Assembly: GCA_015178975.1 (NCBI GenBank)
Contig: WHVD01000005.1
Coordinates: 62,001 to 126,000, forward strand
Reading direction: 5' to 3'
Length of the DNA: 64,000 nt
Source: Hysterangium stoloniferum
Taxonomy: Eukaryota; Basidiomycota; Agaricomycetes; Hysterangiales; Hysterangiaceae
Position numbers and translations under genes: made by a program. The notes below the pieces were generated by a model. The model saw nothing but the letters and a program-made list of their open reading frames with translations. It was not told the origin of the DNA and did no database searches. This document shows positions 3,189-53,994 of the stretch, one piece after another. Position 1 is the stretch's first letter; each line of letters starts with the position of its first letter.

Positions 3189-3255
3189 CCAGTTCTCTGG
3201 AGAAGGGTCACATATCCCTGGGGGGGGGGAGGATCTATAAGCATTTCCGGGAAAA

Positions 3256-3595
3256 TCTTAATAAAATTGGAATAATTCAAATAAAATACAATAAATGAAA
3301 ATAAAATGTTTAAAAATAAAATAAAATAAAATAAAATAAATCAAAAAGAAATATGAGAAATCAAGAAGTAAAAACAATAAATAAAATAAATCAAAATAAA
3401 ATACAATAAATCCAAATACAATATAATAAATCAAAATATAATAAAACTATAATCAAAATAAAATACAGTAACTCAAAATAAAATACAATATATCAAAATA
3501 AAATACAGTAACTCAAAATAAAACACAATAAACCAAAATAAAATACAGTAAATCAAAATGAAATACATTACATAAATCAAAATAAATAAATCAGG
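3256..3595 (+). repeat. A-rich AAATAAAATAC low-complexity tract
   Basis: Degenerate repeats of AATAAAATAC and AAATCAAAATA fill this tract. The counterpart in copy 2 is at 31385-31675, shorter and with different unit numbers, as expected of replication slippage. It belongs to the Helitron 5' non-coding region. Confidence 0.8.
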
Positions 3596-4035
3596 TGAGC
3601 ACAGTGATTACTTGCAGTTGACCATCAATTCAACCATTGGAACTGTTCTTTCTTTTGTAACTATTATTCCTTTTGTAACCATTGTTTCCTTTGTCACCGT
3701 TGTTTCCTTTTGTCACCGTTCTTTGAAGACTTTCCTTTCTCTATGTGAACACTTTCTTCTTTTTAAAAGGAGTCCTTTCTCAAACAATGAGTCTCAGAAA
3801 TACTTAAAAGTTGTTGACACAGGGGGGTTTGGGAGGCTTCACCTCCCAACAAGCTGGAGCCCACAGTGAAGTTGTGGGGCTGGTTGCAGAGTGACTGCCC
3901 CGTAGCATAGCAAGGGTTCCCAAGCTTGTCATATAAGTTAATTTGCATTGGTGGGTCCATGGGTGTTGTTGCTGAGTCATAAAATAGAAGCACCTGTGAG
4001 CAAAGTGAGCCCTATTTTCCCATGGTCTGCATCTG

Positions 4036-9620: not shown

Positions 9621-11999
9621 CAGAACGGATCTCAATTAAGGAGACTGTTTGCTACTATTCTCAGCCAATGCTTTCCTTCTGATCCAGCTGCACTCTGGCA
9701 TGAATTCAAAGCAGACATTTGTGATGACTTGAAACACTTTCTTCAGACACGTCTTCATCAACTAAATCAACCAGAGCCATCTGATCAGACAGTCCATGAC
9801 TTTGGCCTCTTTAAGCTTGAGGAAATTCCTTGTACAAGTGGGAAGCCACTCTCAGAGTACCATCATATGCCTCAATTTACAGAGCCATGGGAAGAGAGAG
9901 TGGGAAATCAATTTATCAATGAACAGAAGGCTTATGACCATGCAACTGAGCAAATAAAAGCAAATATAAATGTTGAAAAGGTGAATGAGGGCCAGAGGAT
10001 TGCATACAATCAAATTATGGATGCTGTCATTGCAAGGCATGAAACTGGAGTAGATAGAAAGCTTTTCTTTTTGAATAGACTTGCAGAGGCAAAAAACTCA
10101 TTGTACTCTGTGTTGCCTCCTCTGGCATTGCTTCATCTATTCTGAGTGGTGGGCAGACATCTCACAGCATGTTTCAAATTCCCCTTGAAGTTGATGAGAA
10201 ATTCATCTGTACAATGAAGAAAGGTTCAGATAAGGCCAATCTAATGAAAGAGGTGAGCCTTATTATTTGGGATGAGGTTCCAATGCAGAATCACTTTGTC
10301 TGTGAGGCAGTAGATCAGAGCCTTAGAGATATCCTTAACAAGGATATTCCTTTTGGAGGCATTACAGTAGCATGGGATGGTGACTTTCAACAGACATTTC
10401 CTGTCATTCCTAAAGGTTCAAAAGAGGATATTATTGGTGCATGTATCTCATGGTCTCACCTTTGGAACAATGTCAAGATTCTGTTTTTGATTGAGAATAT
10501 GCATGTGGATCCTACTGATCAAGAGAGTGCTGTTTTTGCTCAATGGCTTTTGGATATTGGACATGGAAAGGACATGCCTCTCTATCATGGAGGTTGTCTG
10601 TAATCATTATAATATCAAATGTTTACTAATAAAAGCAAAATTGCTACAAAACTTCATCTTTAAATAGCAGTATCTATTCTGAGACTATTATATTGTTAAC
10701 AACCAACCATGAGATACAATTATCCATATTACATCTTATACAACCCATAGTTATTTAAAAAATTCCATTGTATATAATTTCCTTTTTTTTACAGATGCCT
10801 ACTAATACTTTTATTAGTACTTTGTTTTTTAAAAGTTGTAATGTAGTGATTTCCATGTAAAATATGTAAAATATTATTGGAAATTTTTCATATTACAGCT
10901 GTCTTTATTAAGTAAAACCCCCTATATATTCTGGGTATGTTGAATCAAGTAGAAATCTGTTCAGATTGACAGATCCATTCTGAAGTAATACATATGTATT
11001 TAGAGGTGCCAATGATATACATATGCATGGAATGGACTATCTAAAGGTATCTATTTTTTTTAAAGTATTAGTGTTTCAAACTACTATTTTTTTTCATTGT
11101 CTACTCATGTCCAGAAAGATTCTTTAGTTTGTAATGTATGAGAGAGTTTAAAACTTTCAAAAAGTTTTAAAAACCAAATTATGTTTGAATCACATCTCAG
11201 ATGTTTAAATGACCTTTAGAGTATATTAGAATTTGGTATACTTAATAGTTTTCAGATATCCTCCCATATGTTTAAAGTCCCTGAACACATGCTATGTGGA
11301 CCAACAGTGGATAATTTAGTCTCAACTATTCATCCAAATATACATGATCCTGAGGTTCTTACCAATGAGTTTTTCTTGGAGCAGGCCATTCTCTGTCCTC
11401 GAAATTCAGATGTAGATCAAGTCAATGACATGCTCTTTGAAAAATTTCCAGGGATTAGACAAACCTACCACAGTGCAGACAGTGTCAAAGATGGAGGGGA
11501 TGAGACATTATATCCTCCTGAGTACTTAAACTCAATCAACTTTGGAGGATTGTCACCAAGTAAATTGCATTTGAAACCTGGAGTGCCATTGATGTTGCTT
11601 CGAAACTTGGATCCAGGACAAGGACTCTGTAATGGAACAAGACTGCAGTTAATACAAATGACTCACAGAGTACTTCAAGTAAAGATCATTACAGGACCTT
11701 CAGCAGGAGAGCTGGCATTCATCCCTCGAATAACAATTATTCCAAATACAAAACAAGTGCCATTTGAACTGCATTGTTGGCAGTTTCCAGTCAGGCTAGC
11801 ATTTTCTATGACTATCAGTAAGTCACAGGGTCAATCTTTAAAATTAGTTGGATTGGATCTGCATAGTCCTGTGTTCTCACATGGACAGTTTTATGTTGGT
11901 GTTTCAAGAGGGACAAATTGGGGAAGAGTGAAAACCCTACTCCATGACACTGATATGACTGCAAATGTAGTGTCTAAGGATATTATTATTGATCCATGA
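9620..11999 (+). pseudogene. Helitron Pif1-like helicase domain, broken and interrupted
   Basis: The frame at 9555-10145 leads into the helicase. The Walker A site near 10070-10100 reads NRLAEAKNS where GPxGxGKT is expected, so ATP binding is lost, and a frameshift follows. The frame at 10169-10603 has Walker B as LIIWDEVPM (10257-10283) and helicase motifs to PLYH. A 676-bp GGAGG repeat (10589-11264) interrupts it. At 11268 the protein resumes in register with MFKVPEHML and continues through LRNLDPGQGLCNGTRL and FSMTISKSQGQSLK to the stop at 11997-11999, typical of Helitron helicase C-termini. Copy 2 carries the same interruption at the same residue, so that insertion predates the duplication. 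Confidence 0.85.
10589..11264 (+). mobile_element. Solo 676-bp GGAGG repeat (family 1) in helicase gene
   Basis: It starts GGAGGTTGTCTG and ends CAGATATCCTCC, flanked by a 3-bp duplication CAT (10586-10588 and 11265-11267). Removing it with one CAT restores the helicase reading frame. It matches, with visible divergence, the full length of the direct repeats that bound the 7-kb element at 44892-51892. It therefore looks like the solo-repeat remnant of such an element. It contains no gene. Confidence 0.85.
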
Positions 12000-18700: not shown

Positions 18701-19494
18701 GCTGAACGCCGGCCCATATTATATCGTACTCCTCGTCCACTTGGCATTTTCTTCCCACATTCCACTAGTGATCATTCCACACCATCTGCTTTTTTAACCC
18801 TTTTCTTCATTCACTCCGTTTCTTTTCCTGTTGTGATAATAATTAGATACGTGTATTTGACTTGTGGTATACGCAGTTTACCTGCTATTAAACCTTTTTC
18901 TCCTAGCACTTTCCTGAAATCCGCCGCCCATTAATCAGTTTCTTTGCTGGAGCCATGGAGAAAATCCCTACCAAGATGCTAATATGCTAACCGTTCGCAG
19001 GTTACACGTAAGCCTTCCTCTTCTGACAGTGCTCCATCAATAGTCGCCGCCATTAACGTCCTTCGCCCGTATGGTGCTGCACCCATAGTGGCCACCATTT
19101 CAATTTGTTCTGTCGGCACCTCTAGGTTACCGTCATCTATGTTTACCCAAATACAAATATAAACCGCTCAACCCAATGTCTTCACGCAAGGACCTAAATT
19201 GTCCAACTGATGTAATGGTCTCCCAACATGTGGGAGTGTTTTGAAGGGCGTAAGGTACGCTTTTTTCATGAGTTGTCTGTTGGCGGCGATAGGAGTCCTG
19301 ACATTGCAAGGAAAGAAACTTCGGCAAGCGCTGCATCATGTATAGTGACGACGCCTGCGGTGAGGTGAAAGCAGTTCTCCAAAATCCTTGACTGCACACA
19401 ATTTTAGTAGATGGGTTTGTGGAAAACTTGACAGTTTTTCTAGAGGACTTTTAGTCGTGGCAACCTCCCGGTCAAACAAAAGAGAGTTTACTCG
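18701..19494. other. Upstream of HEAT gene, no confident gene
   Basis: A minus-strand frame at 19133-19399 (88 codons) has no recognisable domain. It could be a 5' exon of the HEAT gene or chance. Nothing else is supported. Confidence 0.3.
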
Positions 19495-31314: not shown

Positions 31315-31384
31315 TCAGTTCTCTGGAGAAGCATTACATATCCCTGGGGGGGGGGGGTCTATAAGCATTTCCGGGAAAATCTCA

Positions 31385-31675
31385 ATAAAATTGGAATAAT
31401 TCAAATAAAATACAATAAATGAAAATAAAATAAAATAAAATAAATCAAAAAGAAATATGAGAAATCAAGAAGTAAAAACAATAAATAAAATAAATCAAAA
31501 TAAAATACAATAAATCCAAATACAATATAATAAATCAAAATATAATCAAAATATAATCAAAATAAAATACAGTAACTCAAAATAAAATACAGTAACTCAA
31601 AATAAAATACAGTAACTCAAAATAAAACACAGTAAATCAAAATGAAATACATTAAATCAAAATAAATAAATCAGG
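31385..31675 (+). repeat. A-rich tract of Helitron copy 2
   Basis: This is the counterpart of 3256-3595 in copy 1, built from AAATAAAATAC and CAGTAACTCAAAATA units. Unit number differs from copy 1. Confidence 0.8.
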
Positions 31676-32449
31676 TGAGCACAGTGATTACTTGCAGTTG
31701 ACCATCAATTCAACCATTGGAACTTCTCAGAAATACTTAAAAGTTGTTGATGCAGGGGGGTTTGGGGGGCTTCACCTCCCAACAAGCTGGAGCCCACAGC
31801 GAAGTTGTGGGGCTGGTCACAGAGTGACTGCCCCGCAGCATAGCAAGGGTTCCCAAGCTTGTCATATAAGTTAATTCATTTGCATTGGTGGGTCCATGGG
31901 TGTTCTTGCTGAGTCATAAAATAGAAGCACCTGTGAGCGAAGTGAGCCCTATTTTCCCATGGTCTGCATCTGCGAGTGAAGCGAGCAGCCTGTTTCCCAT
32001 AGTCTGTATCTGTGAGCACAGCAAGCCTCAGGGTTCCCACAAAAATTTAAAACTCCTCCTACTGCTGCCATGCTGTCAGGCCACCCAATCACTTGCATCT
32101 TCCACTCTAAGCTCTCTAAAAATAAACTCTGACCAGTTCTTCCATAGGACAATCAAGGGCTATATAATTACCACTTCTCTGAGCCTTTTAATTGGCCCCA
32201 TTGGCTTTGAGGCATGTGACAGCAAATTCTCTCTTTTTGAATTTAAACTTATTTTTTCCTATATAAACCTTTGGTCTTTTTTGGTAGTTTTGTTAAAGAA
32301 GATCAGGGAGGTGAAGTTCTAAAGACTTTATTGAGTTTCCTGGAAATTCCAGTAAGTTATTTGTTAATTTTCACTTTTTTTAATGTCTTTTTAATACATT
32401 CCTGTCTCTTTTTGTATCCTTTCTGGCTCAGATCATATCCTCATACCAT

Positions 32450-34092: not shown

Positions 34093-34307
34093 ATGGAGGT
34101 TGTCCGTAATCATTATAATATCAAATGTTTACTAATAAAAGCAAAATTGCTACAAAACTTCATCGTTAAATATGTAGCAGTATCTATTCTGAGACTATTA
34201 TATTGTTAACAACCAACCATGAGATACAATTATCCATATTACATCTTATACAACCCATAGTTATTTAACAAATTCCATTGTATATAATTTCCTTTTTTTT
34301 ACAGATG

Positions 34308-35126
34308 TGTTACGACCGGACAATCCCGCCGGACTCTGGGCACTAACCCGTACGCCCCCATGCGCTACAAGCACCAATCGTCTGTTTATAGGATTTCCCG
34401 CCCAGACTCCGTTATGTCAAGACTCGTTACGTTCGACCTCATTATGACACATATCAGTCACCGGACTTCCCCTGGACTCTGTCCCTGTCTATGTCCATCT
34501 TCGTCCCACGCATCAGTCACCGGATCCCGCTCAGAATCCCGTCACCGCTCTATTCGAGCCCCATTCCCATTTTAGTCAAATGACCTGTCACGATTAGGAC
34601 TCCGCTCCCGCTCCGTTTCCCGTTATGGGTTATGCCTTGTCACAATTCGGACTCCGCTCCGTTCTGTCCCGTTCCTAACACCAAATTTGGTGTTTACATT
34701 TCCTGTTTGTGTTTTGTTAGTTTCGTTTTCATTATTACCGGATTAGTATGTTCATTCACTCCATGGTCTATTTAAACTGGCAGATGTTGTACATACAATC
34801 CAGTCAGAAAATTAGCTTAGATTCCCCCCTTTAATCTACTATATTTTTCCGCCCTAAAACCCTACTCTTATCAGACCGCTCGCACTAGTCGGAGCCCACG
34901 GGCCCCGGCGCATCTATCTCTCTCAACCATCTCGACCCACGACTCACGACCTACGACCTACGACTTACGACCCACGAACTCCACCCGGACTCCCCGGGAT
35001 TCCCGTCCGTCTGTTTGAAATTGGACAACACGATCTAGCGAGGGCGCAGCCTATAAGCTGAAGCCAAGTCCTACCGGATATCCCGCGGGTTTCTCCGGAG
35101 ACCCGGCCTGTGTGTGTATCCTAACA
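34308..35126 (+). mobile_element. Solo LTR, family A (gypsy)
   Basis: It starts TGTTACGACCGGACAATCCC and ends GTATCCTAACA, with a perfect 5-bp duplication AGATG (34303-34307 and 35127-35131). The empty site is visible in copy 1 near 10795 (TTACAGATGCCTACT). It is the same family as the LTRs of the gypsy element at 36998-56728, including the GGGCGCAGCCTATAAGCTGA box. Confidence 0.92.
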
Positions 35127-35343
35127 AGATGCCTACTAATACTTTTATTAGTACTTTGTTTTTTAAAAGTTGTAATGTAGTTATTTCCATGTAAAATATG
35201 TAAAATATTATTGGAAACTTTTCATATTACAGCTGTCTTTATTAAGTAAAACCCCCTATATATTCTGGGTATGTTGAATCAAGTAGAAATCTGTTCAGAT
35301 TGACAGATCCATTCCAAAGTAATACATATATATTTAGAGGTGC

Positions 35344-36066
35344 TGTTACGACCGTGTCGTAACCCTTCGCAAACCGATGGCCCCCGATGGAATACCCTCG
35401 TTATACGTCTCCGACAATACAACACCTCGGAAGCCGTCGGACCCCCGACGCTGACGTATGCTCTCTGGTCAATCAAACCCGACTACGCCTTTCTGTCTGG
35501 TTATGTTTTGATATGTCCTTTTCATCATGTTGATCCGTCTCATCTTATGTTCCACATATGTCTAACTATATTTGTAGTCCTCGAACTATTTCCTTTTATC
35601 ATAATTTCCATTCTCGGTTATCATCGGCCTCCGAACTAATCATAAACTTCCTGTTCCTAGTCAAGCTTATTGTTAATGCCGTTTTCCGCCCTCCTCCCCA
35701 TTAGTACTTTCTAGACGCCTGTTACTTGTATATGAACTCACTGTAATTGTAGTTACTAGGCAATCAGAATATCGACTCAGAATACCCTCATACGTCTGTA
35801 GCAGTCTCATACTAGGAGAATCTCTCTTCCGCCTTCGCGTGCGCTCGCCCACTCTCGGCCCCGACCCCTTGGCCCGACACCTGACTTGTCCTTCGGTTCC
35901 GATCGGTATCTTGCCGAAAAGTTCTTCTTAGGATTTAGTCTTCGCCTGTCCGAAATTTAAGGACAACCTACGGATATTTGCGAGGGCGCAGCATATAAGC
36001 TGAAGCCAAGTCCTTCCGATCGGTCCCCGTCGGCCACCGACATTAGTCAGTTTCTAGTTCTTAACA
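35344..36066 (+). mobile_element. Solo LTR, family G
   Basis: It starts TGTTACGACCGTGTCG and ends CTTAACA, flanked by GGTGC (35339-35343) and GGTAC (36067-36071), a 5-bp duplication with one change. It shares the box GGGCGCAGCATATAAGCTGA with families A, B and C, implying related gypsy lineages. The empty site in copy 1 reads AGAGGTGCCAATG. Confidence 0.88.
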
Positions 36067-36329
36067 GGTACCAATGATATACATATGCATGGAATGGACT
36101 ATCTAAAGGTATCTATTTTTTTTAAAGTATTAGTGTTTCAAACTACTATTTTTTTTCATTGTCTACTCATGTCCAGAATGATTCTTTAGTTTGTAATGTA
36201 CAAGAGAGTTTAAAACTTTCAAAAAGTTTTAAAAACCAAATTGTGTTTGAATCACATCCCAGATGTTTAAATGACCTTTAGAGTATATTAGAATTTGGTA
36301 TACTTAATAGTTTTCAGATATCCTCCCAT

Positions 36330-39837: not shown

Positions 39838-41475
39838 TAATGTATTAGGCTTATTTTAATATTATTTTCTGGAAAAAGGAGTCCAATGCTCTATCAAAGT
39901 GTGCAAATACTCAATTCACTACAAGGTAAAATAATTTTAAGTATTTGACATTAATCAGTGGCAGCCTTAATAGACTTAGAACCCCTGAAGTCAAGAGTTT
40001 ACTTGAATATATGCACCCTACTTTGCAAAGAAGGTTTTGAGAGCTGCTTGTGCAAGCTTGTTCTTTTTCTGTGATAACAACTACTAAAATAAGAATAACA
40101 ATTTACTGATTCCAAAGCTAGATTTAACTTCAATGCTAGCTAGTTTATATATATTTTATACTATTTGTCAAACAGTAAAAATATTTATAAACAGGTCAAA
40201 AGATTAGATATAGAAGAAAACACTATTTGGCTAATATATGCTTTATTTACACTAACCTACAGGGTCTACAGTGATACTAACTTATCAGGATCTTAATGTA
40301 GTCTTAGGATCTTGCAAGGATATTCTCAGTATTTATTTATGTGAATATGCTTTACTGATTCACAATAAATGAGCAAGGGAACAGGGATTATTTGTAATGT
40401 AATAATCAGTCAAATTACTCAACAAGAGGTGACTGAAGTTTTAGATTACAAATAACAAGAAATGTAACAAGGATTATTTGCAATGTAATAATCAGTCAAA
40501 TTACTCAACAAGAGGTGACTGAAGTCTTAAAGTACAAATAACAAGATATGTAACAAGCAGTCAAATTACTCAACAAGAGGTGACTGTAGTACAAAGGATT
40601 AATACCAAATTACTCAACAAGAGGTGGCAGGGAATCCTGATTGGTAGAATTACTGTAAAATTACTCAACAAGAGGTGACAGGGAATCCTAGGTGCCAGAT
40701 GCTCAACTAAGAGGTGGCAATAAACTGCTTGCTACAGTGACACACAGATGTTGTATAAATGGATTGATAAAATTGGTTATATTTCATGGCTGGAGCAGAG
40801 CTCCTTATATACACTGAGATCTGAGACATTTAGAGACATATTGAACTTTATTTCTATCCTAATTTAGCTATTTTACTTGGAATGTTTTAGACATTTCCAC
40901 CATTCTCTGTTGTAGCATATATGATGACATAATATATGACATAATATTCCCAGATGCGCGTGTGACACCTGTCGCGCCTTTTGTGACTGTCGCGCGCCCC
41001 TGTGACTGTCGCGCGCCCTTGTGACTGTCGCGCACTCTTGTGACTGTCGCGCGCCCTTGTGACGACTGTCACTCGTTGTGACGACGGTCACTCGTTGTGA
41101 CGACGGTCACTTGTTGTGACGACCGGTCACTTGTTGTGACGACCGGTCACTTGTTGTGACGACCGGTCACTTGTTGTGACGACCGGTCACTTGTTGTGAC
41201 GAACGGTCACTTGTTGTGACAACTATTCCCGCGCATTGTGTAATAAGCGCCAGGTGGCCGGTTTTGAAGATATATAGTTAAAAAAGAATAAAAGTAGAAA
41301 TTTCGTAGCTCCCTCAATTTATAAGATAAAAATGCAAACTAAATTGCATAAATTCAATATAAATTAAGAGAATATTGTACAATTTTATAATCGCGATATA
41401 AATACATTTAGAAGCCTTTGTTAAGAATTTCGTCTTTGGGGAAATTGCGAAAAATAGAAAAACCCTTTAAAATAC
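39838..41475 (-). repeat. Repeat E, second copy, inverted in gag
   Basis: It matches, inverted, the segments 13998-14356 and 969-2641 without the LTR and Tc1 insertions. It holds the CTCAACAAGAGGTG minisatellite at about 40380-40720 and a CpG-rich palindromic minisatellite at 40960-41225. The right border is placed where gag coding resumes. No coding region is recognised. Confidence 0.6.
40960..41225 (+). repeat. Palindromic CpG-rich minisatellite
   Basis: The first part repeats an 18-bp unit TGTGACTGTCGCGCGCCC about five times. The second repeats a 20-bp unit GTGACGACCGGTCACTTGTT about eight times, each containing the near-palindrome GTGACGACCGGTCAC. The surroundings are AT-rich and CpG-poor, so this block stands out. 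It is not present in the parts of repeat E seen at 969-2641. Confidence 0.85.
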
Positions 41476-42579: not shown

Positions 42580-44890
42580 TACATCGAACATCCAAGGCCT
42601 CCATGGAAACCCCGTCGAAGGGCTACCGACTCAAAAAAAGAGTAAGCAACCCCGTGGACTCTGCACGGGTTGGAGGTTGCGTTGCCTCTCCACGCATTCA
42701 AGAGTTTACCCATCTCAATGCATCTGCTCTTTCACATTCTGATTCATTTTTCATTAAACTTATGTCTAATATGATCCCGAAATTTGTTTTTTCAGCTCTT
42801 ATAGGTTCAGGCTCAACTCATTGTTTTTTAGATACAAAATTCATGCAAAACAATTTGTTATCAACTTATTCGATAAATCCCATTGGCCTCCACCTCTTTG
42901 ATGGCACAAGTAATTTGATCGTTACCCAAGCTTGTGATTTATCCATCTGTTTCCCATGTGGAACATCTCATTTGGTTACTTTCTATGTGACCCAGTTAGA
43001 CTCAAGTTGCTCGGTGGTCCTAGGACATAACTGGCTTACCGGCTACAATCCATTGATTGACTGGATAGCTAACAGTATAACATTCTGGACTCCCATGGCA
43101 GCCGAGGAAACTGCACCCGACCCGGCCTCCATGGCACCCATGGCCTTCCCGGCACCTGCAGTCTCGAGGACTCCGATGATCCCTATGGCACCCATGGCTT
43201 CCCCGGAACCCATGGCACCTCCACCTATTTCTCTGATTAATGCTGCAGCTTTTATTAGGGCTTCAAAAATGGATGGGTCCCAGGTGTTCACTATCAACTT
43301 AAAAATTGATGAAGCAACTGGACATTTTTCAACCCTGGTATCCAAATCTGAGCAAGCCACTGACCTAGAAGGCATCCCGGAGAAATATCATGACTTCACA
43401 GATGTTTTTAGCAAGCGAAAAGCTGACCGGCTTCCGCCTCACAGAGAATATGACTCAAAAATCGATCTTGAAGACGGTGCCCAGCCACCCTTAGGACATA
43501 TCTATCCACTCTCATCCATGGAACTTTCTGCAATCCACGATTTCCTGGATGAACATTTGTCCATAGGCTTTATCTGACCCTCAAAGTCTCCTTTTGGAGC
43601 ACCTGTTCTGTTTGTCAGAAAAAAGGATGGATCCCTTAGACTCTGTGTTGATTTTAGAGGCCTCAATGCTGTCACCAAAAAGGATAAGTATCCACTCCCA
43701 CTCATATCTGATCTGCTCGATGCTCCGTGGAATGCCCGGATTTACACCAAAATAGATCTCAAAAAAAAAACACGCCTATCATTTGGTCTGGATTGCCATG
43801 GGTGAGGAATGGAAAACCACTTTTAGAACCCATTATGGGGCCTTTGAGTGGTTGGTGATGCCCTTTGGACTCACCAATGCTCCATCTGTTTTTCAGTGTT
43901 TTATCAATGACATTTTCTCTGACATGCTCGATGTATGTGTCATTGTTTACTTGGACAACATTCTTATCTACTCCGAGAATCCCATGTAACATGACAAACA
44001 AGTCCATGAAGTTCTCCGGAGACTCAGACAACATGGTTTATTCGTGAATGGTAAAAAATGTACTTTTGACATGGACTCCATGGAATACCTGGGTTTCATC
44101 ATGGGACCCAATGGACTCCGCATGGATGAAACTAAAGTGCAAGTCATCAAAGATTGGCCTGAACCCTGAAAAGTTAAAGATATGCAATCCTTCCTTGGCT
44201 TTGCCAATTTTTACAAATGGTTTATCCACAGATATTCCAACATCATGGTACCCCTTACCATCTTATGCGCAAGGATACTCTGTGGAATTTTAATGATAAG
44301 TGTCAAAAAGCTTACAATCTTTTAAAAAAATCTTTTTCTTCAGCTCCTATTCTGTCACATTGGAAACTGGACTTCCCGCTCATTGTTGAAACGGACACTC
44401 CAGATTATGTGTTTGGAGCCATTCTGTCTATCCAGGACTCTGGTGGAGAAGTCCACCCTGTGGCTTTTCTGTCCCAGACTTTCACCAGAGCAGAGCTCAA
44501 CTATGATGTTCATGATAAGGAACTCCTGGCAATCTTTTCAGCTTTCAAAGTGTGGTGTCACTATTTGGAAGGCTCGGGAACTCCTATTGACATTGTAACA
44601 GATCACAAAAACCTGGAATACTTTTCTACCACAAAACGTTTGAGCTGCCGGCAGGCCCGCTGGTCTGAATATCTATCTGCCTTCAACATGATTATCCGCT
44701 TTTGACCCGGCCGTCTTGGCGGCAAACCCGACGCTTTAACTAGACAATGGAACATCTATCCTAAAGAGGGGAGCAACGACTATGCCATGGTAAACCTGCA
44801 CAACCTGAAACCTATTTTCACGAATCAGCAACTTACCACATCGGTCCGTGCAACTTTCCTAGTACATCCCATTGTCCGTGGAATTATCAT
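42580..44890 (+). pseudogene. Gypsy pol: protease, RT, RNase H (inactivated)
   Basis: The protease region (frame 42444-43577) has FSALIGSGSTHCFLD near 42790, where the catalytic Asp of DSGS is Gly, then the flap-like VVLGHNWLTGYNPLIDW. Reverse transcriptase follows: DFTDVFSKRKADRLPPHREYD, a TGA after SIGFI (43575), [35 protein letters not shown], then [10 protein letters not shown], where the YxDD catalytic pair is changed to YLDN (about 43955). RNase H (44217-44705) has LIVETDTPDYVFGAIL and ELNYDVHDKELLAI. Several stops are TGA or TAA where CGA or CAA would fit, consistent with C-to-T decay. The frame is cut at 44892 by the 7-kb element. Confidence 0.87.
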
Positions 44891-44891
44891 T

Positions 44892-45566
44892 GGAGGGTGT
44901 TTATAATTACTATAATCTCAAATATTTACTAATAAAAGTCTTATTTTTACAAAACTCCATCTTTAAATAGTGATATCTATTCTGAAACAATTATATCATC
45001 AAAAAACAACCATCAGAAATAGTTCTCCATATTACATCTTATACAACCCATAGTTATTTAACAAATTCTATTGTATATAATTTCCTTCCTTTTACAGATG
45101 TCTACTAATACTTTTATTAGTACTTTGTCTTTTAAAAGCTGTAATGTAGTTATTTCCTAGTAAAATATATGAGATGTCATTGGAAATTTTTCATCCTATG
45201 GCCTTCTTTATTAAGTGAAATTACCTATATATTCTGGGTATGTTGAATCAAGTAGAAATCTGTTCAGATTGACAGATCCATTCCGAAGTAATACATATGT
45301 ATTTAGAGGTGCCAATAATATACATATGCATGAAATAGACTATCTAAAGGTATCTATTTTTTAAAAGTATTAGTGTTTCAAACTACTAATTTTTTTTATT
45401 GTCTACTTGTGTCCGGAAAGATTCTTGGGTTTGTAATGTATGAGAGAGTTTAAAACTTTCAAAAAGTTTTAAAAACCAAATTATGTTTGAATCACATCCC
45501 AGATGTTTAAATGACCTTTAGAGTATATTAGAATTTGGTATACTTAATAGTTTTCAGATATCCTCC
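44892..45566 (+). repeat. Left 675-bp direct terminal repeat
   Basis: It starts GGAGGGTGTTTATAATTACT and ends TTTTCAGATATCCTCC; the two ends form a short imperfect inverted repeat (GGAGG/CCTCC). By eye it is identical to 51218-51892. It is AT-rich and has no gene. Single copies occur at 10589, 34095 and 53320. Confidence 0.93.
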
Positions 45567-45579
45567 TACTGGAAGTTTA

Positions 45580-46935
45580 TCAAATTTCTTCTCCTTTCTT
45601 TTTCCAGTATTCATCTATACACTCTGTGGTATCAAAACTCCTCACTCCTTGCCAAGTTACATCTTCATATCCCTTCCATTTTACAAGGTACTCTCTGAAC
45701 TTTCCTTTTCCTCTATGGTTTATTATTTCCTCAATTTCATATGCCTCATCTGTCTCATCCATATCTTCATCATCACCTAACTCCATACTCAGAAAACTTC
45801 TTTGAAGCTTGAGCATCTCCTGAGCATTACTTCTACTATCTGTCAATGATGGGAGATTCTCATATGTTTCAATATTTTCATCTTTCCAGTAGTCAAACTC
45901 TGAAGATAACCATGAAGAGTGATGAGGTTGAGGTTGAATACCACCTAAAACTACAAACTTCTTCACATTTAATAAGAGACATCCAAGCTTTAACTGGGTT
46001 GTGAATACCTCATCATCAGAAACTCTAACACCTCCTTCATTACTGAGCTTCTTAAATGTGGTAGCCAGCTCTCCAAAAGTAGCTTCAATCTTAGACCTGA
46101 AACTACCAAACATTTTGTTAAAGGTACTCTCTTCCTTTGACAATTCTATACCTTTTGATTTACGTATAGGTATACAGAAGTTAATCATATCTAATTCTGT
46201 ATTACTTGTTATCTTTGTAAGGTGTAAGGGATATCCCCCATCTAAAGCAATACAATCTAGTTTGTCTATATACTTTTCCAATTTCATCTTTACAAACATG
46301 ACTCCATCTGAATTATCTTTACAGGGTGCTGACTTTGATGTGAATAGAACCATGCCATTTATATCAATACAAACTTGTGTGCGAAGTCCAGATTTCTTGA
46401 GTTTATATGAATACATATCTTCACTCTTCTCACCAATAACACTTGCTCTAGTATCATGGCCATCTATCATTAATGTTACATGTCTAAACAATGGAGGATT
46501 TTTCTGTGCAGAATGAATGCGTATATCAATAGTTGAGAACATAGAAATGAGCATATTTGAGATCCTTTTATCAAGATCATTACCTTGTCTTTCATAGAAT
46601 TTTCTAAAAATATCATAATAACTACTTTTAGGTATAAAGACTGACATTTGATTTAAGGAATAACCTTGCAGTAGTTGATATAGTATTAAAAGTCCTTTCT
46701 CCATATTTCTATAGGGTCCAGGATAATCTTGGGTGGCAAAGACCACAACAAGGAAGAAAAAGACTGGAATAATACCAAGTCTCTGAAGAACAAGATCCTT
46801 AATGTGACTAATTTTATCAATAGGTTTGATATCAGACCTGTGATACTTGGATGGCTTGATCTGAGGCCATTCCTTATAAAGGAACTTCCATTGTTGGTCC
46901 ATTAACTTATTAAACTCCTCATTTAGAGGAGACAT
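45580..46935 (-). CDS. DDE transposase (PIF/Harbinger-IS5-like) with C-terminal chromodomain
   Basis: 451 codons, intact. The catalytic core matches the DDE_Tnp_4 pattern: IDGHD (Asp158), LDGGYP (Asp232) and RSKIEATFGEL (Glu284), with the R-x2-IE-x2-FG context of the Harbinger/IS5 group. Residues about 398-449 form a chromodomain: YEIEEIINHRGKGKFREYLV, then KWKGYEDVTWQ, with the expected aromatic and acidic residues. Chromodomains bind methylated histone tails and steer integration in some gypsy integrases; here the fusion is to a DNA transposase. A hydrophobic stretch (VFFFLVVVFA, near 58-67) is probably buried core. The start at 46935 follows a 194-bp divergent gap. The gene ends 14 bp from the left terminal repeat. 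It presumably catalyses insertion with the 3-bp duplication. Confidence 0.88.
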   Translation of the reverse strand: MSPLNEEFNKLMDQQWKFLYKEWPQIKPSKYHRSDIKPIDKISHIKDLVLQRLGIIPVFFFLVVVFATQDYPGPYRNMEKGLLILYQLLQGYSLNQMSVFIPKSSYYDIFRKFYERQGNDLDKRISNMLISMFSTIDIRIHSAQKNPPLFRHVTLMIDGHDTRASVIGEKSEDMYSYKLKKSGLRTQVCIDINGMVLFTSKSAPCKDNSDGVMFVKMKLEKYIDKLDCIALDGGYPLHLTKITSNTELDMINFCIPIRKSKGIELSKEESTFNKMFGSFRSKIEATFGELATTFKKLSNEGGVRVSDDEVFTTQLKLGCLLLNVKKFVVLGGIQPQPHHSSWLSSEFDYWKDENIETYENLPSLTDSRSNAQEMLKLQRSFLSMELGDDEDMDETDEAYEIEEIINHRGKGKFREYLVKWKGYEDVTWQGVRSFDTTECIDEYWKKKGEEI

Positions 46936-47129
46936 TGATATGATTAGTATACAATGCTATACTGATTTGGAAATATTCAATTTAATAGAGAATATTGAAA
47001 GTTTATATATTACATACTAAAATACCATTGAAGTTATTGTTATTCTACTATATGGGTATAATAATGAAAAATGAATTATTCTAACTTTATCTATCATCAG
47101 ATAGGATTCTACAATCTTTACAAGTTAAT
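46936..47129. promoter_or_regulatory. Divergent intergenic region, probable promoters
   Basis: This is the only gap where the transposase gene (leftward) and the small-protein genes (rightward) diverge. It is very AT-rich, and no specific motif can be named. The role is inferred from position only. Confidence 0.35.
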
Positions 47130-47609
47130 ATGTCTACTTCTTCAACATCACTCCTTATTAAACCTACTGCTTATAACTGCTTTGTTAGGGACAAAACAGT
47201 TATTATTACCAGAACTAGGGAGCCAAACCCCAATGTTCCAAAACAATTTCAAATTTCTATTACAGATCCTAAGAACAAAATATACTATATCAATTATGAT
47301 AGTTTGCAATTAAGTCCCCCATATAAATTTCAAGATAAGGTTGATTTTCCATTCTTATCTGAACAAATGGGGTATTACTATTTTATAGGCCTTGAACCAA
47401 TCCCTCTGAGATCATATGACAATAATATACAAATGTATAATGCTATATTTACTCATCCGAATACAGCAATTATAGATAAAATCATTTTTGAGGTGTTTGT
47501 ATCTTTCCAAAAAAAGTTAGATGAACATGAAGAAAGAGTTGAAGAAGTTCCAACATCTTCTGGTTGGTGGAAGGGATTACTTTCTTATTTCTTTGTTTGT
47601 TGTTTCTAA
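47130..47609 (+). CDS. Unrecognised 159-aa protein of the 7-kb element
   Basis: The frame is intact, starting MSTSSTSLLIKPTAYNC. The body is rich in Tyr, Asn and Pro, with motifs such as DKVDFPFLSEQMGYYYF. A charged segment (KKLDEHEERVEE) precedes a hydrophobic tail ending LLSYFFVCCF, which could anchor in a membrane. It is the first gene of a rightward cluster, 94 bp before the nuclease-like gene. I do not recognise a family. Confidence 0.6.
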   Translation: MSTSSTSLLIKPTAYNCFVRDKTVIITRTREPNPNVPKQFQISITDPKNKIYYINYDSLQLSPPYKFQDKVDFPFLSEQMGYYYFIGLEPIPLRSYDNNIQMYNAIFTHPNTAIIDKIIFEVFVSFQKKLDEHEERVEEVPTSSGWWKGLLSYFFVCCF

Positions 47610-47703
47610 ATGTATTGGTATTTGATTGTAAATTTTAAAAGTTACATTTAACTTAATAGAGGATATTGATTATTTCTGTATATTGATTAGATAAGTAAGT
47701 CTA

Positions 47704-48315
47704 ATGGAGCAAATATTAAAGATATCTGTGAATGCTGCTGAAAGTGCTTCTATAAATCCTGACAATTTAGAATGCTTTTGGTATGCACCATGGAATGTTA
47801 GACTATCATTGTTACAACCACCATTATTGGTTAATCCCCAACTATCCTTACAATATAGTATAACCAATAGGGATGATGTAGAGATACCTAAGATATTTAT
47901 ACCAGACTTTGTTGTTATCCATTATAAAAAGGAAGCACAAAGTCTATATGAATGTAAATATTTGATAGTGGAAAATAAGAGAGCAGCTGATACAGCTCAT
48001 CTAAAAAGTGATCTAGAAAAAGCAGATGCTCAACTTAAAGAATATATGCAGATAGTCTTTCTAGATGAGGACTATCATGGGATATTTGGAATAGTCTCTG
48101 TAGGAAGATTTTGGAAATGGTACAGATTTATTAGGAAAGATACTTCTAAGAGTCACAAGCCTAAAACTTCATGGGGGAATAAGAGTTATATCCCTAGTGA
48201 TGAAGAAGAGGAAGAAGTATTTGAAATAGAATATAAATCTAAAATACTTGATATTATGGATAATAATTCATTTGATCAACTTAAATCTAAAATTAGAAAT
48301 ACCTTCCCAAACTGA
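47704..48315 (+). CDS. Probable PD-(D/E)XK nuclease-like protein
   Basis: 203 codons, intact. Residues 66-72 read IPDFVVI and residues 87-92 read LIVENK, which together fit the PD...(D/E)xK active site (Asp68, Glu90, Lys92) with hydrophobic beta-strands around them. A helix with Gln-rich spacing (AQLKEYMQIVF, 109-119) follows, as in many nucleases of this fold. An acidic segment (SDEEEEEVFEIE) lies near the C-terminus. Such enzymes cut DNA or process ends; a role in excision or repair of element ends would be inference. It lies 35 bp before the next gene. Assignment rests on motifs only. Confidence 0.6.
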   Translation: MEQILKISVNAAESASINPDNLECFWYAPWNVRLSLLQPPLLVNPQLSLQYSITNRDDVEIPKIFIPDFVVIHYKKEAQSLYECKYLIVENKRAADTAHLKSDLEKADAQLKEYMQIVFLDEDYHGIFGIVSVGRFWKWYRFIRKDTSKSHKPKTSWGNKSYIPSDEEEEEVFEIEYKSKILDIMDNNSFDQLKSKIRNTFPN

Positions 48316-48350
48316 AAATTTAAAAGTTCACCAATATAAATATTGATCAG

Positions 48351-48686
48351 ATGAACTTTCCCAAAGTACTTGGATATAAGGTTTCTAGTGATAAGCTGTT
48401 AGAACAGTGTCATAGACACCATATAAATACAGAACATGGTTATTTGGGAGATATTAAGAGGTTAATAAGAAGAAGTGGATGTCCAATAACATTCAATACT
48501 CAAAAACATGAAGACTGTCCTAAAGGTGAAGGTGGAATGTTTATTATGTGTATCTATGAACTTTCTTATCCTAAAGAGGAAGTAGATATTCAAGAGATCT
48601 TATCAAAATTTCCACCTATATTTGAAGAGATAAAAAGTGATCTTGGAATAGTTGGGGATCCACAATTCTATTTAATAGAACCCTAA
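48351..48686 (+). CDS. Unrecognised 111-aa protein of the 7-kb element
   Basis: The frame is intact, starting MNFPKVLGYKVSSDKLLEQC. It has a Cys/His-containing middle part (HEDCPKGEGGMFIMC) but no clear zinc-binding spacing. It ends just before the left arm of the central palindrome, so the palindrome may overlap its transcript end. Family not recognised. Confidence 0.55.
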   Translation: MNFPKVLGYKVSSDKLLEQCHRHHINTEHGYLGDIKRLIRRSGCPITFNTQKHEDCPKGEGGMFIMCIYELSYPKEEVDIQEILSKFPPIFEEIKSDLGIVGDPQFYLIEP

Positions 48687-48690
48687 CTAT

Positions 48691-49284
48691 TCCCCATAAA
48701 TCCTATTTTTAAAAGAAATTTCAACCAACCTATTTCCCCACAACCCCTCTTTTTAAAAGTAATCCAAAAATCCTTTAAAATCCAATGATAAAATTAAAAA
48801 TCTGATGTGGTGATGTAGTGGTGACATAGGCTTAGGGGTCTACCTTAGACCCTATTCCACATGGATATTTTCTATTGGTATTTTAGGGGGTTTTGAGTAT
48901 CTTTTTCATGGAAATATTCAATGGTGATGTAGCTCATCCATTCTTTTAAGTTACTCTATCTCCTATTTCTTCCTACCCAAAAAAGGAAGAAAGAATAGAG
49001 TTGAAAAAAGAAATAATAGAGTTGAAGGAGCATTAGAGCTACATCACCATTGAATATTTCCATGAAAAAGATACTCAAAACCCCCTAAAATACCAATAGA
49101 AAATATCCATGTGGAATAGGGTCTAAGGTAGACCCCTAAGCCTATGTCACCACTACATCACCACATCAGATTTTTAATTTTATCATTGGATTTTAAAGGA
49201 TTTTTGGATTACTTTTAAAAAGAGGGGTTGTGGGGAAATAGGTTGGTTGAAATTTCTTTTAAAAATAGGATTTATGGGGAAATA
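48691..49284. repeat. Central palindrome of the 7-kb element, ~245-bp arms
   Basis: The left arm (48691-48935, starting TCCCCATAAATCC) and right arm (49036-49284, ending GGATTTATGGGGAAA) are near-perfect reverse complements around a 100-bp spacer. It separates the convergent genes ending at 48686 and 49298. It could be a bidirectional terminator, a replication structure for the Rep-like protein, or a fold-back element inserted later. No flanking target duplication is evident. Confidence 0.9.
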
Positions 49285-49297
49285 CTGTAGTAATATT

Positions 49298-49609
49298 TTA
49301 GGGATTTTCAGTTATTCTTATATATTCAACTAATTTCTCCACTACCTCATTATCTATATTTACCTTGGAAAATAATTTATGTTCTAGATCTTTTCCAATA
49401 TTAAGAAGGAAGAATATAACATCACTACCACAAGATTTCTCATCAAGTTTTGAAGAACCTTTCTCGACAAGTTTGATATTAAGTTCTACAACTGCTATAA
49501 GAATCTTTTTCATTTTGAGATCTAGTGACAATGATAAGACTACTATCTCACATATATTATTTATATGTTGTTCATTGAGGTTAGTGATATTGGTCTCAAG
49601 GAGATCCAT
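49298..49609 (-). CDS. Unrecognised 103-aa protein of the 7-kb element
   Basis: An intact leftward frame, starting MDLLETNITNLNEQHINNIC. It looks mostly helical (SLDLKMKKILIAVVELNIKL). It lies 31 bp downstream of the 512-aa gene on the same strand, suggesting co-transcription, and ends at the palindrome. No family is recognised. Confidence 0.55.
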   Translation of the reverse strand: MDLLETNITNLNEQHINNICEIVVLSLSLDLKMKKILIAVVELNIKLVEKGSSKLDEKSCGSDVIFFLLNIGKDLEHKLFSKVNIDNEVVEKLVEYIRITENP

Positions 49610-49640
49610 TCTGCCACAGAAGCAACAGATTGAACTTTTT

Positions 49641-51179
49641 TCATTTTATAAGTATATCTTTCTGTCCTCCATGTCTCATTATTATCTTACCAGTTTCAAT
49701 ATAGGTCTTGTCTTTCATATCTTTTACAACATTTTGTAAGGATTCTCCACACCTTACCTTCAGTACTTCTGAATTTTTGTCTAAGACTTCTATAACAGTA
49801 CAATTCTTTCCCCTATATGAAAGTTGACCTTTTGATATGACTTGATATTTTGAATTTTCTTTAAGAATTGAATATCCTACCTTGTACATAGATATTCTCA
49901 AATCACTCACTTCTTCTAAATTCTTACTAACTTTATGAATTGGGACAAGGGGAGGTGACTTTTTAGTTATACGAGTATCAATCCAACCAAGCTTTACTCC
50001 TTTGTATTCCACAAGTCCTATGTCACTTGCTGAAAATGAACTCTCAACCCTAGGATAGAGTCCTCCTCTGGGACCAGGTATAAGTGTAATACCCTTTTGT
50101 GACCTTTTGTATTCATCTACTATGGTTATCCCATCATCAAATCTAACAAATTTGGTAGTATTTCCATTAAAACTATAGTTAGAAATTAATTGAATTATAT
50201 CTTCCTTATTTACATTTTTTTGAAAGCCTCCTTGGATCTTTCCTGTTAAAGAATTCCACCAATGACAATATGTGAAAAACTTTCTATCTTCTAAGTAAAC
50301 CATTATTATTGATTTGGAATAAATGTTATCCACAAGTGCTCTCCATTGCTCTTCAAAAGAACTTCTATAGAATCTACATCCATTAAAATTGTTTCTAACA
50401 CTGATGAAGTTGTTTATATACCATGATTTTGAGAATACTTTGTTACCATAAAACTTAACTTCAATCCTTGTCATTCCCACATACTTTAATCTTTCTAGTG
50501 ATTGTGACATTGACTCAGTAGGATCAACATATAAATTGTGGATTCTAGATCCTAGAGTAGTCATTACATCACAGCTTTCTAGCATTTGTACAAATTTGTT
50601 ATATACTTTGATCTTATATGAGTGATCTTCATTGTAAAATGATATACAATTATCTCCAACCTTTTTTCTATCATCTATAATATCTTCTTTTCTTATTCCA
50701 AGATTTAATATATGCTTAAGAACATCTTTTCTAGTAGTAACATAGGAGATATCTTGGGAGATATCTATATCATGTAATATAATTTCATCGCAAATGGTTT
50801 CTCTTAGGAATTTTATTATGTTTTTAATGGGTACCTCAGATAATGAAATTTTATAAGAAAAGTAAGGAGTATTTGTGGGTGCAATATCATTATTCTTGAG
50901 AGTATCTGAGTGTAATAACTTTATCTTAAAGGAAAGTGAGAAATATACTTTGCATTTTCCATATATGACATCTCTAAAGTCTCCACCAATAGACCAAAGA
51001 ATTACATTGTCACAGAAAATATATGAAGTATTAGAGGACTCAAAAGACAGTCTAATGGCTTCTAAAGGATTGTGGTATTTAGTATCCAGAACATCAGGTA
51101 TACTGAACTCTTTTATAATATCAATACATTCTTTGAGTGCCTCATTTGCCATGGGAGACTGTAACAGTTGTACACTCAT
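49641..51179 (-). CDS. 512-aa protein with Rep-like (replication initiator) motifs
   Basis: This is the largest and apparently intact gene of the element. It starts at 51179, close to the right terminal repeat. Motifs in order: HDIDISQD (136-143), VGDNC (174-178), KVYNKFVQMLES (191-202) and MTRIEVKFYG (236-245). That order (acidic D-x-D strand, then RVYxK-like, then R-x-E-x-K strand) resembles replication initiators of the Rep_trans type, which nick DNA through a tyrosine. No HUH (His-x-His) motif is seen, so it is not a Helitron-type Rep. Similar proteins may exist in other eukaryotic genomes, but I cannot name a family with certainty. The C-terminal third (FVRFDDGITIVDEYKR onward) is unassigned. 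A replication role for the element is inference. Confidence 0.55.
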   Translation of the reverse strand: MSVQLLQSPMANEALKECIDIIKEFSIPDVLDTKYHNPLEAIRLSFESSNTSYIFCDNVILWSIGGDFRDVIYGKCKVYFSLSFKIKLLHSDTLKNNDIAPTNTPYFSYKISLSEVPIKNIIKFLRETICDEIILHDIDISQDISYVTTRKDVLKHILNLGIRKEDIIDDRKKVGDNCISFYNEDHSYKIKVYNKFVQMLESCDVMTTLGSRIHNLYVDPTESMSQSLERLKYVGMTRIEVKFYGNKVFSKSWYINNFISVRNNFNGCRFYRSSFEEQWRALVDNIYSKSIIMVYLEDRKFFTYCHWWNSLTGKIQGGFQKNVNKEDIIQLISNYSFNGNTTKFVRFDDGITIVDEYKRSQKGITLIPGPRGGLYPRVESSFSASDIGLVEYKGVKLGWIDTRITKKSPPLVPIHKVSKNLEEVSDLRISMYKVGYSILKENSKYQVISKGQLSYRGKNCTVIEVLDKNSEVLKVRCGESLQNVVKDMKDKTYIETGKIIMRHGGQKDILIK

Positions 51180-51217
51180 TACATTTTTTTCAATTTGAAA
51201 ATCAAGACCTTCATATA

Positions 51218-51892
51218 GGAGGGTGTTTATAATTACTATAATCTCAAATATTTACTAATAAAAGTCTTATTTTTACAAAACTCCATCTTTAAATAGTGAT
51301 ATCTATTCTGAAACAATTATATCATCAAAAAACAACCATCAGAAATAGTTCTCCATATTACATCTTATACAACCCATAGTTATTTAACAAATTCTATTGT
51401 ATATAATTTCCTTCCTTTTACAGATGTCTACTAATACTTTTATTAGTACTTTGTCTTTTAAAAGCTGTAATGTAGTTATTTCCTAGTAAAATATATGAGA
51501 TGTCATTGGAAATTTTTCATCCTATGGCCTTCTTTATTAAGTGAAATTACCTATATATTCTGGGTATGTTGAATCAAGTAGAAATCTGTTCAGATTGACA
51601 GATCCATTCCGAAGTAATACATATGTATTTAGAGGTGCCAATAATATACATATGCATGAAATAGACTATCTAAAGGTATCTATTTTTTAAAAGTATTAGT
51701 GTTTCAAACTACTAATTTTTTTTATTGTCTACTTGTGTCCGGAAAGATTCTTGGGTTTGTAATGTATGAGAGAGTTTAAAACTTTCAAAAAGTTTTAAAA
51801 ACCAAATTATGTTTGAATCACATCCCAGATGTTTAAATGACCTTTAGAGTATATTAGAATTTGGTATACTTAATAGTTTTCAGATATCCTCC
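51218..51892 (+). repeat. Right 675-bp direct terminal repeat
   Basis: Same orientation as the left repeat and, by eye, identical. It is followed by ATT (51893-51895) and the resumption of gypsy pol as MDIEKLHQDIL. Confidence 0.93.
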
Positions 51893-53290
51893 ATTATGGA
51901 TATTGAGAAGTTACATCAAGATATTCTATCAGCAATTCCACTAGACCCAATAACTAAAGCTCACCTTGACAATCCTGTGGACCCCGATCAACCTCGGTGG
52001 TCTTTTGATCAGCATGGTTTCATTAGACTTGATGATCACATCTATGTACCGGACTCTGATGGCCTCTGCCTCAGGATCCTTCAATACAAACATGATCATC
52101 CACTCTCAGGACATTTCGGGTACAACAAAACTCTATCACTAATAAGAAGAGAATACACTTGGCCCAGACTCCATGGATTCATTAAGCACTACTGTAAATC
52201 TTGTACTACTTGTCCCTGCTCAAAATCTCAGCGACACAAGCCATACGGCCTTTTGAAACAACTCCCGGTACTGGAACACCTGTGGAATTCTATCTCTATG
52301 GATTTCATTGAACACTTACCGGATTCCTAAGGCATTTCCGCTATTCTAGTCATTGTTGACAGATTCTCAAACAAAGGCATATTCATCCCTACATATGACA
52401 CAATTATGTCCGTGCAGTTAGCAGAACTTTTTATCATCTACATATTTTCCAAGCACGGAGTTCCATCCCATGTGACTTCCGATCGAGGATCAGAGTTCAT
52501 CTCTCACTTCTTTAGATCCCTTGGGAAATCCTTGGACATGACATGGCATTTCATGTCCGGACATCACCCGGAAGGTGACAGACAAACCAAACACGTCAAT
52601 CAGACATTGGAACAATATCTCCATGTATATTGCAATTACCAACAGGACAATTGGAAATCCTTGTTACCACTTGCAGAGTTTGCTTACAACAATGCACCTT
52701 CGGCCACTACTGGTGTTTCCCCATTCTTTGCAAATAAAGGATATAATCCAAATATTACAGTACATCCACAATGAAATCTCACCTCTGCTCATGCTCAAGA
52801 GTTCACCACGGACCTCCACAAGCTCCACGAGGAATTCCAGACTGCAATAATGTCCACCCAAGAGCAATACCAACATTCAGTGGACAAACGCTGGATCCTG
52901 CCACCAAACTTCAAAATTGGTGATTGTGTTTTTGTCAAAGCTCAATTCTTCCAGACAACCCATCCATCAAAAAGCTTGCTGAAAAATATTTAGGTCTGTT
53001 TGAAATTATCGCACAAGTAGGTTCAGTCTCTTGGACTACGGCTTCCAGATAGCATGCGTGTGGTACACCCGGTATTTCATGTTTCTATGCTAGAACCTTG
53101 TACTGCTAACACTATCCCGGATTGCGTGCAATCTCTGCCTCCTCCAGTCATTATTCACAGAGAATCTGAGTTTGAAATCTCACAAATTTTAGATTCGAAA
53201 TTGAAAAGCGTTGGCGCACTTGTAAACTGCTTTACTTGGTCAAGTGTATACTATAAGGGCTAGAGATACCTTATTAGTATGTAATCCATG
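51893..53290 (+). pseudogene. Gypsy pol: integrase and degenerate chromodomain
   Basis: After the 7-kb insertion the frame continues with the H2C2-type zinc-binding region (YKHDHPLSGHFG, KHYCKSCTTC) and the integrase core. Catalytic positions fall in SISMDFIEHLPDS (Asp) and HVTSDRGSEFIS (Asp). The Glu region reads HHPEGDRQTKHVNQ, where NGQTE is usual, so the Glu appears changed. Stops lie at 52328 and 52772, with further shifts after. The C-terminal region has MRVVHPVFHVSMLEP and a broken chromodomain start EFEISQILDSKLK (about 53170-53210), with the rest out of frame. Confidence 0.83.
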
Positions 53291-53319: not shown

Positions 53320-53994
53320 GGAGGATATCTGAAAACTATTAAGTATACCAAATTCTAATATACTCTAAAGGTCATTTAAACATCTGGGATGTGATTCAAA
53401 CATAATTTGGTTTTTAAAACTTTCAAAAAGTTTTAAACTCTCTCATACATTACAAACTAAAGAATCTTTCTGGACACGAGTAGACAATAAAAAAAATTAG
53501 TAGTTTGAAACACTAATACTTTTAAAAAGTAGATACCTTTAGATAGTCCATTCCATGCATATGTATATCATTGGCACCTCTAAATACATATGTATTACTT
53601 CGGAATGGATCTGTCAATCTGAACAGATTTCTACTTGATTTAACATACCCAGAATATATAGGTAATTTCACTTAATAAAGAAGGCCATAGGATAAAAAAT
53701 TTCCAATGACATCTCATATATTTTACTAGGAAATAACTACATTACAGCTTTTAAAAGACAAAGTACTAATAAAAGTATTAGTAGACATCTGTAAAAGGAA
53801 GGAAATTATATACAATAGAATTTGTTAAATAACTATGGGTTGTATAAGATGTAATATGGAGAACTATTTCTGATGGTTGTTTTTTGATGATATAATTGTT
53901 TCAGAATAGATATCACTATTTAAAGATGGAGTTTTGTAAAAATAAGACTTTTATTAGTAAATATTTGAGATTATAGTAATTATAAACACCCTCC
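53320..53994 (-). mobile_element. Solo 675-bp GGAGG repeat, inverted
   Basis: The exact inverted counterpart, with few differences, of the terminal repeats of the 7-kb element; same length (675 bp). It is flanked by TAT (53317-53319 and 53995-53997). It lies in the 3' region of the gypsy element, only 1.4 kb from the right repeat of the 7-kb element. Its own duplication shows it is a separate event. Confidence 0.9.

Follow-up and report, generated by a model that had tools for sequence, protein, structure and literature searches.

We analysed a 64,000-nucleotide stretch of Hysterangium stoloniferum DNA (hereafter the window; contig WHVD01000005.1, positions 62,001 to 126,000), which is part of the contig termed C441 in a 111-Mb assembly, and focused on a 7-kb DNA transposon at positions 44892-51892. 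Two long terminal direct repeats (each termed R) bracket a core that holds a DDE transposase gene, several small open reading frames (ORFs), a long hairpin and the gene for a predicted Rep_trans-like protein. The features are as follows (coordinates in the window; aa, amino acids).

44889..44891, no strand: left target-site duplication, ATT
44892..45566, plus strand: left R, 675 bp, with tips GGAGGGTGT and ATATCCTCC
45580..46935, minus strand: transposase, 451 aa, with DDE_Tnp_4 and a C-terminal chromodomain
47130..47609, plus strand: ORF174, 159 aa from ATG, with relatives in the sister family C356/C141
47704..48315, plus strand: ORF206, 203 aa from ATG
48351..48686, plus strand: ORF120, 111 aa from ATG, found in other copies
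48690..49281, no strand: perfect inverted repeat, with arms at 48690-48935 and 49036-49281 and a 100-nt loop
49301..49612, minus strand: 103-aa ORF, found in other copies
49641..51179, minus strand: predicted Rep_trans-like protein, 512 aa
51218..51892, plus strand: right R, 0/675 differences from the left R
51893..51895, no strand: right target-site duplication, ATT

Layout and insertion site

The insertion of the unit was precise, with a 3-bp duplication. The first-pass annotation had described two apparently identical 675-bp repeats in the same orientation around a 5.65-kb core, and the alignment of positions 44892-45566 with 51218-51892 bore this out (675 of 675 bases), the core between them measuring 5651 bp (45567-51217). 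The ATT duplication lies only outside the whole unit, as had been claimed (outer flanks ...ATC-ATT and ATT-ATGG), and its removal does rejoin a gypsy pol gene, whose frame is open across the site (...VRGIIIMDIEKL...); the 477 translated bases of the joined outer flanks contain one stop, further upstream of the insertion site. Three paralogous gypsy copies span the element-free site gaplessly (L011, 477 bp; L020, 435 bp; L059, 336 bp), and a chance match of the 3-mer at the outer flanks has a probability of about 0.017. The inner flanks of the R pair read TAC and ATA, so neither R has a duplication of its own; because these flanks fit no duplication, two independent insertions of miniature inverted-repeat transposable elements (MITEs) at the site are ruled out. 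Independent target duplications on each repeat, or inverted ends of a transposase unit inside the R, had been named at first as evidence that would count against that reading; the paired R show no such duplications, and the core ends form no clear inverted repeat, agreeing at 14 of 40 positions, compared with a random mean of 11.4 and a score reached by 450 of 2000 random pairs. R itself carries short inverted tips (GGAGGGTGT.. / ..ATATCCTCC), which agree at 8 of 12 positions, including all of the first five. The GC content is 30.5% in the element, compared with 42.2% in the remaining window.

The transposase matched DDE_Tnp_4 (E = 4.9e-10, 39.7 bits against a cut-off of 24.8) and, at its C-terminus, the chromodomain (E = 2.1e-6), and residues D158, D232 and E284 are kept in all 12 aligned sequences. 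The same gene order (transposase, ORF206, ORF120, 103-aa ORF, Rep) recurs, whole or in pieces, in nine other copies (C71, C113, C152, C177, C1, C212, C442, C464, and C537). Related genomic copies form a mobile family, which bears out the earlier view that the unit is genuinely mobile, having a DDE transposase and direct repeats that resemble long terminal repeats (LTRs). We regard the descriptive part, comprising precise insertion with a 3-bp duplication, solo units, near-identical pairs and conserved enzyme residues, as nearly certain.

Copies and relatives in the genome

In a genome search with R, 40 of 1098 first-look candidates were scored, and all 40 proved to be near-full copies with an identity of at least 98%. 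Five of them belong to three full elements (C441, C71, and C442), and the flanks of solo R were judged for 19 of the other 35 and for one more diverged R of the window (10589). Perfect 3-bp duplications flanked 19 of these 20 solo R, the sole one without (L009) being rearranged, with an inverted partial copy. The count excludes the R of a broken element on C323 (L026 3271-3942; right tip lost, flanks unequal) and a split copy in the window (34095-36326), which has flanks in common with the copy at 10589. When the flanks of solo R were joined, 7 of 17 queries matched a genome place spanning the junction, the best empty site being L014 (297 of 297 bases, 96% identity, gapless). Two solo R lie in the window:

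53320..53994, minus strand: solo R, 98% identical, own duplication ATA
10589..11264, plus strand: solo R, 90% identical, own duplication CAT

The R copies at 10589-11264 and 34095-36326 have their flanking sequence in common and thus appear to stem from a single insertion that was duplicated with its segment; the second is split by later insertions.

Both outer tips were readable in ten full elements, and nine of these had equal outer 3-bp flanks: ATT in the present element (C441), C71 and C152, ATA in C442 and C1, AAT in C113, TAA in C537, TGG in C356, and TTA in C141; the tenth, C464, is taken up below. Altogether, 28 duplications gave no strict consensus. An outer tip is missing in C212 and C177, and in the stretches of C367 and C323 that were compared, beyond which their other ends lie, no transposase match adjoins the Rep match. 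The left inner junction (R|TACTGGAA) is identical in all 10 copies compared, and most copies have a right inner junction ending in ...CTTCATATA or ...TTCATTAA-like sequence, while the last ~50 bases before the right R differ from the other copies in C152, C537, and C27.

We further compared the two R of the six 7-kb elements in which both are complete, and found 0/675 differences in C441, 1/675 in C71, 4/674 in C442, 0/675 in C152, 6/675 in C113, and 10/671 in C1. The mean R difference was 0.52% within pairs versus 6.6% between elements, R of different elements diverge by up to 15%, and the true pairing was the best of all 720 pairings. Three damaged pairs, left out of this test, had 24/297 (C537), 17/539 (C212), and 4/176 (C464) differences. 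As the pairs are near-identical while the elements differ, these sequence comparisons suggest that the two R were probably identical when each element inserted, both having been copied from one R, and have since drifted as in LTR elements.

The C356 element (L059 4550-9991 with L060) belongs to a sister family, with 620-bp direct repeats that are unlike R in sequence and show 4/620 differences within the pair, tips GGAGGAT/ATCCTCC and the duplication TGG. Its transposase is 49% identical to the present one, and it also encodes an ORF174 relative; a 411-aa repeat-rich acidic ORF was observed there as well. C141 (L061 2387-7801) is a damaged relative, with repeats of ~511 bp, GGAGGAT tips and the duplication TTA. 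The repeat-core-repeat plan is thus common to elements with different repeats.

Core proteins and hairpin

The first-pass annotation had not named a protein of rolling-circle type, but the core encodes a predicted one. The predicted fold of this 512-aa protein had its best match in the rolling-circle initiator 4CIJ. Published Rep_trans motifs comprise D, RxD, T/SxY/ExG, YxKxxE, and W/LxRxE, and in RepSTK1 the final E of YxKxxE is replaced by Q, while an arginine stands two residues ahead of the tyrosine (PMC4797284, PMC5714925, in excerpt). The family of the 512-aa protein has an almost invariant motif line, D55 ... D135xD137xxxD141 ... K189xY191xK193xxQ196 ... R236xE238, which holds counterparts of Rep_trans residues in the right order: three metal-binding acids, the tyrosine on a strand, the lysine, the glutamine and the RxE of motif IV. 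Among seven copies, the ratio of nonsynonymous to synonymous substitution rates (dN/dS) was 0.16-0.25 in the 11 of 21 pairs with dS > 0.15, which suggests from coding changes that the protein has been maintained as a working protein; less diverged pairs reached up to 1.4. The C1 copy has an altered first Rep motif.

The pairing of both genes is found elsewhere. In Rhizomucor pusillus, residues 6-270 of the gene model P0051 correspond to the transposase and residues 364-551 to Rep, which places the two genes side by side in a distant lineage as well. Relatives of the transposase number 316; among the 120 listed, and among the relatives of Rep, those with organism names are, presumably, Mucorales or Mortierellales fungi. 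Equal lengths and sources (5721, 3383, and 3407) only suggested that Rep and transposase lie on the same metagenome contigs.

The hairpin arms, 246 bp long, sit between convergent genes, and both arms were found in 12 of 14 copies compared. Gaps apart, the two arms of one copy have 0-4 bases different, while comparison across copies gave 10-22 differences in 50 of 66 pairs and 0-9 in the other 16. The hairpin (48690-49281) might serve as a replication origin or double terminator, or have arisen by conversion. Compared with the present element, C71 is mosaic (transposase 99.6%, Rep 93.6%, ORF206 78%), which indicates that recombination between copies happens.

Among the small ORFs, ORF174 had no match in five of the nine other 7-kb copies (C71, C113, C1, C212, and C442); it also lacked a relative in the protein collection, where none of 17 candidates reached E 0.001. 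ORF206 was rejected as a PD-(D/E)XK nuclease, a by-eye impression accompanied by a weak ERCC4 score (E = 0.059); its single-sequence structure model had a pLDDT of 39.8. The family scans covered five core ORFs, the 103-aa ORF lying outside them, and these five had no match in PHROGs; positions 44000-53000 had none in Rfam. A viral reading was rejected as well, with no relative in scans of viral contigs and genome contigs.

Known systems and the proposed cycle

PIF/Harbinger transposons end in terminal inverted repeats, insert at TWA-like targets and encode a Myb-like partner. Our element shares the DDE_Tnp_4 domain and the 3-bp duplication with these and other DDE_Tnp_4 (IS5-like) transposons, but has long direct repeats, whose inverted tips are short (8/12 bases), and TAA or TTA occurs in only 2 of its family's 28 duplications, as against the TWA preference; no Myb-like partner of the Harbinger type was found among the five ORFs scanned. 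Paired near-identical direct repeats, solo repeats and a short duplication recall LTR retrotransposons, an assignment rejected in that the five core ORFs scanned gave no reverse transcriptase, gag or protease match. An HUH Rep or Helitron was likewise rejected, with no HUH or helicase match among these ORFs and a 3-bp duplication present.

The first-pass annotation had proposed a new class of element, which does not hold, since a DDD/E transposase flanked by long terminal direct repeats, which also occur solo, had already been described from animal KolobokP (Kojima and Bao 2022, PMC9587614, here and below in excerpt). KolobokP has the same repeat-core-repeat plan: its core holds a DDD/E transposase, its direct repeats (~450 or 660 bp) carry short inverted tips and are also found solo, and its target duplications are short, so the layout is not unprecedented. 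The two differ in that the Kolobok superfamily transposase has C/DxxH between the second D and the E (0 of 12 aligned transposases here), in that a His-Me homing endonuclease is found there and a Rep_trans-like protein here, and in that multimers are common there, whereas none was noticed here in comparisons made without a systematic search (PMC9587614). No Pfam match to a His-Me finger nuclease was found in the five ORFs scanned (the 103-aa ORF was outside the scan), and some KolobokP families apparently lack this nuclease too (PMC9587614). Its authors infer that the repeat can be excised alone, discuss unequal crossover and the entry of a one-repeat circle into a solo repeat, and call the molecular pathway unknown (PMC9587614). 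What is new here is the other transposase group, lacking C/DxxH, and its pairing with a Rep_trans-like protein, a pairing also present in Rhizomucor. The repeat-core-repeat plan is restricted neither to Kolobok nor to animals, so DDE transposons may have arrived at it repeatedly.

Rep_trans initiators (pT181 Rep, RepSTK1) offer the closest solved fold and have most of the catalytic residues in the same order (PMC4797284, PMC5714925), whereas the present protein, of 512 aa and in a eukaryotic transposon, lacks the motif I arginine, motif II and a significant sequence match. Rolling-circle Rep proteins have been mentioned for other eukaryotic elements, namely rotifer Terminons and Helitrons (PMC6431247, in excerpt). 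Within the accessible text of open-licence PubMed Central, no paper was found on a Rep_trans-type protein as a eukaryotic transposon gene or paired with a DDE transposase, and the excerpts of PMC3248453 hold nothing on such an element.

We propose a cycle in which a circle with one R would be released, either by the transposase or through recombination of one R with the other, and a solo R left behind; the Rep_trans-like protein would nick this circle and copy it by rolling circle into head-to-tail (R-core)n; and the DDE transposase would cut the concatemer at the outer tips of successive R and insert R-core-R. The copying of both R from one at insertion, the circle, its rolling-circle replication and the excision of R-core-R from concatemers are what we infer, and we give the whole chain, from single-R circle to DDE insertion, a probability of about 40%. 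More tentative, and somewhat doubtful, is the wider notion of a eukaryotic group that joins a Rep_trans-like initiator, multiplying a single-repeat circle, with a DDE transposase excising repeat-core-repeat units from the concatemer for insertion. If true, this would be the DNA-only counterpart of the LTR retrotransposon cycle. The conserved rolling-circle-type protein and the pairwise likeness of the repeats make the pathway question directly testable.

Several observations weigh against this cycle. Neither concatemers nor tandem multimers were noticed at the genome places compared, in which no systematic search was made. The C356 and C141 contigs have elements with paired direct repeats but without any Rep match, which weighs against a need for Rep in cis, and no long hairpin occurs in the stretches of them compared. 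The outer flanks of C464 are unequal (CTT/TAT) and its right R is reduced to 176 bases; we guess at recombinational joining to another R. The nearest R of C71 and C442 are 0.30% apart, almost as close as within each element, so these two are not independent and count as nearly one. In the 512-aa protein, the TM-scores to 4CIJ are low (0.23/0.39), position 135, an arginine in Rep_trans motif I, is D in 44 of 46 members and S in two, motif II (T/SxY/ExG) occurs in 0 of 46 between D141 and K189, and K189 replaces the Rep_trans arginine. Sequence profiles gave no Rep_trans match: PF02486 was absent for the window protein at E 5 and 1, and of the 35 families matched by the 46 members, the 25 shown do not include it and the others match at most one member each. 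The link therefore rests on the fold and part of the residues, hence the name Rep_trans-like, and the protein is predicted to be rolling-circle-initiator-like through a link that is incomplete. Finally, gene conversion acting on the two R once they are inserted would likewise produce similar pairs.

Among the alternatives, a composite transposon, in which R is a MITE-like unit and two R bracket a core moved by cut-and-paste as in bacterial insertion sequence pairs, with no replication step, seems unlikely to us: lone R are common, with duplications and inverted tips of their own, the KolobokP repeat has been inferred to be excisable alone (PMC9587614) and C356 has the paired plan without a Rep gene, but such pairs should drift with lineage age, whereas all six complete pairs are near-identical in elements up to 15% apart. 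Ordinary cut-and-paste of R-core-R, with in-place gene conversion keeping both R alike, would fit the similar likeness of hairpin arms within copies and the recombination between copies seen in the C71 mosaic; it appears improbable in that the R of damaged copies have diverged (C537 24/297, C212 17/539), as they should if the likeness dates from insertion. A plasmid-like circle of core and one R, replicated by Rep and entering a resident solo R by homologous recombination, in which case the outer duplication would date from that older R, would suit both a Rep-like protein and the abundance of solo R and was proposed as model b1 for KolobokP (PMC9587614), but it is a shade more improbable still, since resident and incoming R should often differ, whereas the C441 and C152 pairs show 0/675 differences and the nearest other R to C152, among those compared, differs by 8/593.

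Near the start of contig C441 (~4.7-9.7 kb; L022, L027), half of an element and its host flank form a fold-back inverted duplication with a 762-bp spacer, either real or an assembly artefact; the inverted neighbouring Rep copies at 5.4-8.9 kb belong to this duplication and are ruled out as a multimer. Elsewhere in the window, positions 16667-18707 hold ~12 tandem copies of a ~166-bp unit, and arrays with a 20-bp period lie at 41084-41243, 3229-3602, and 31353-31686.

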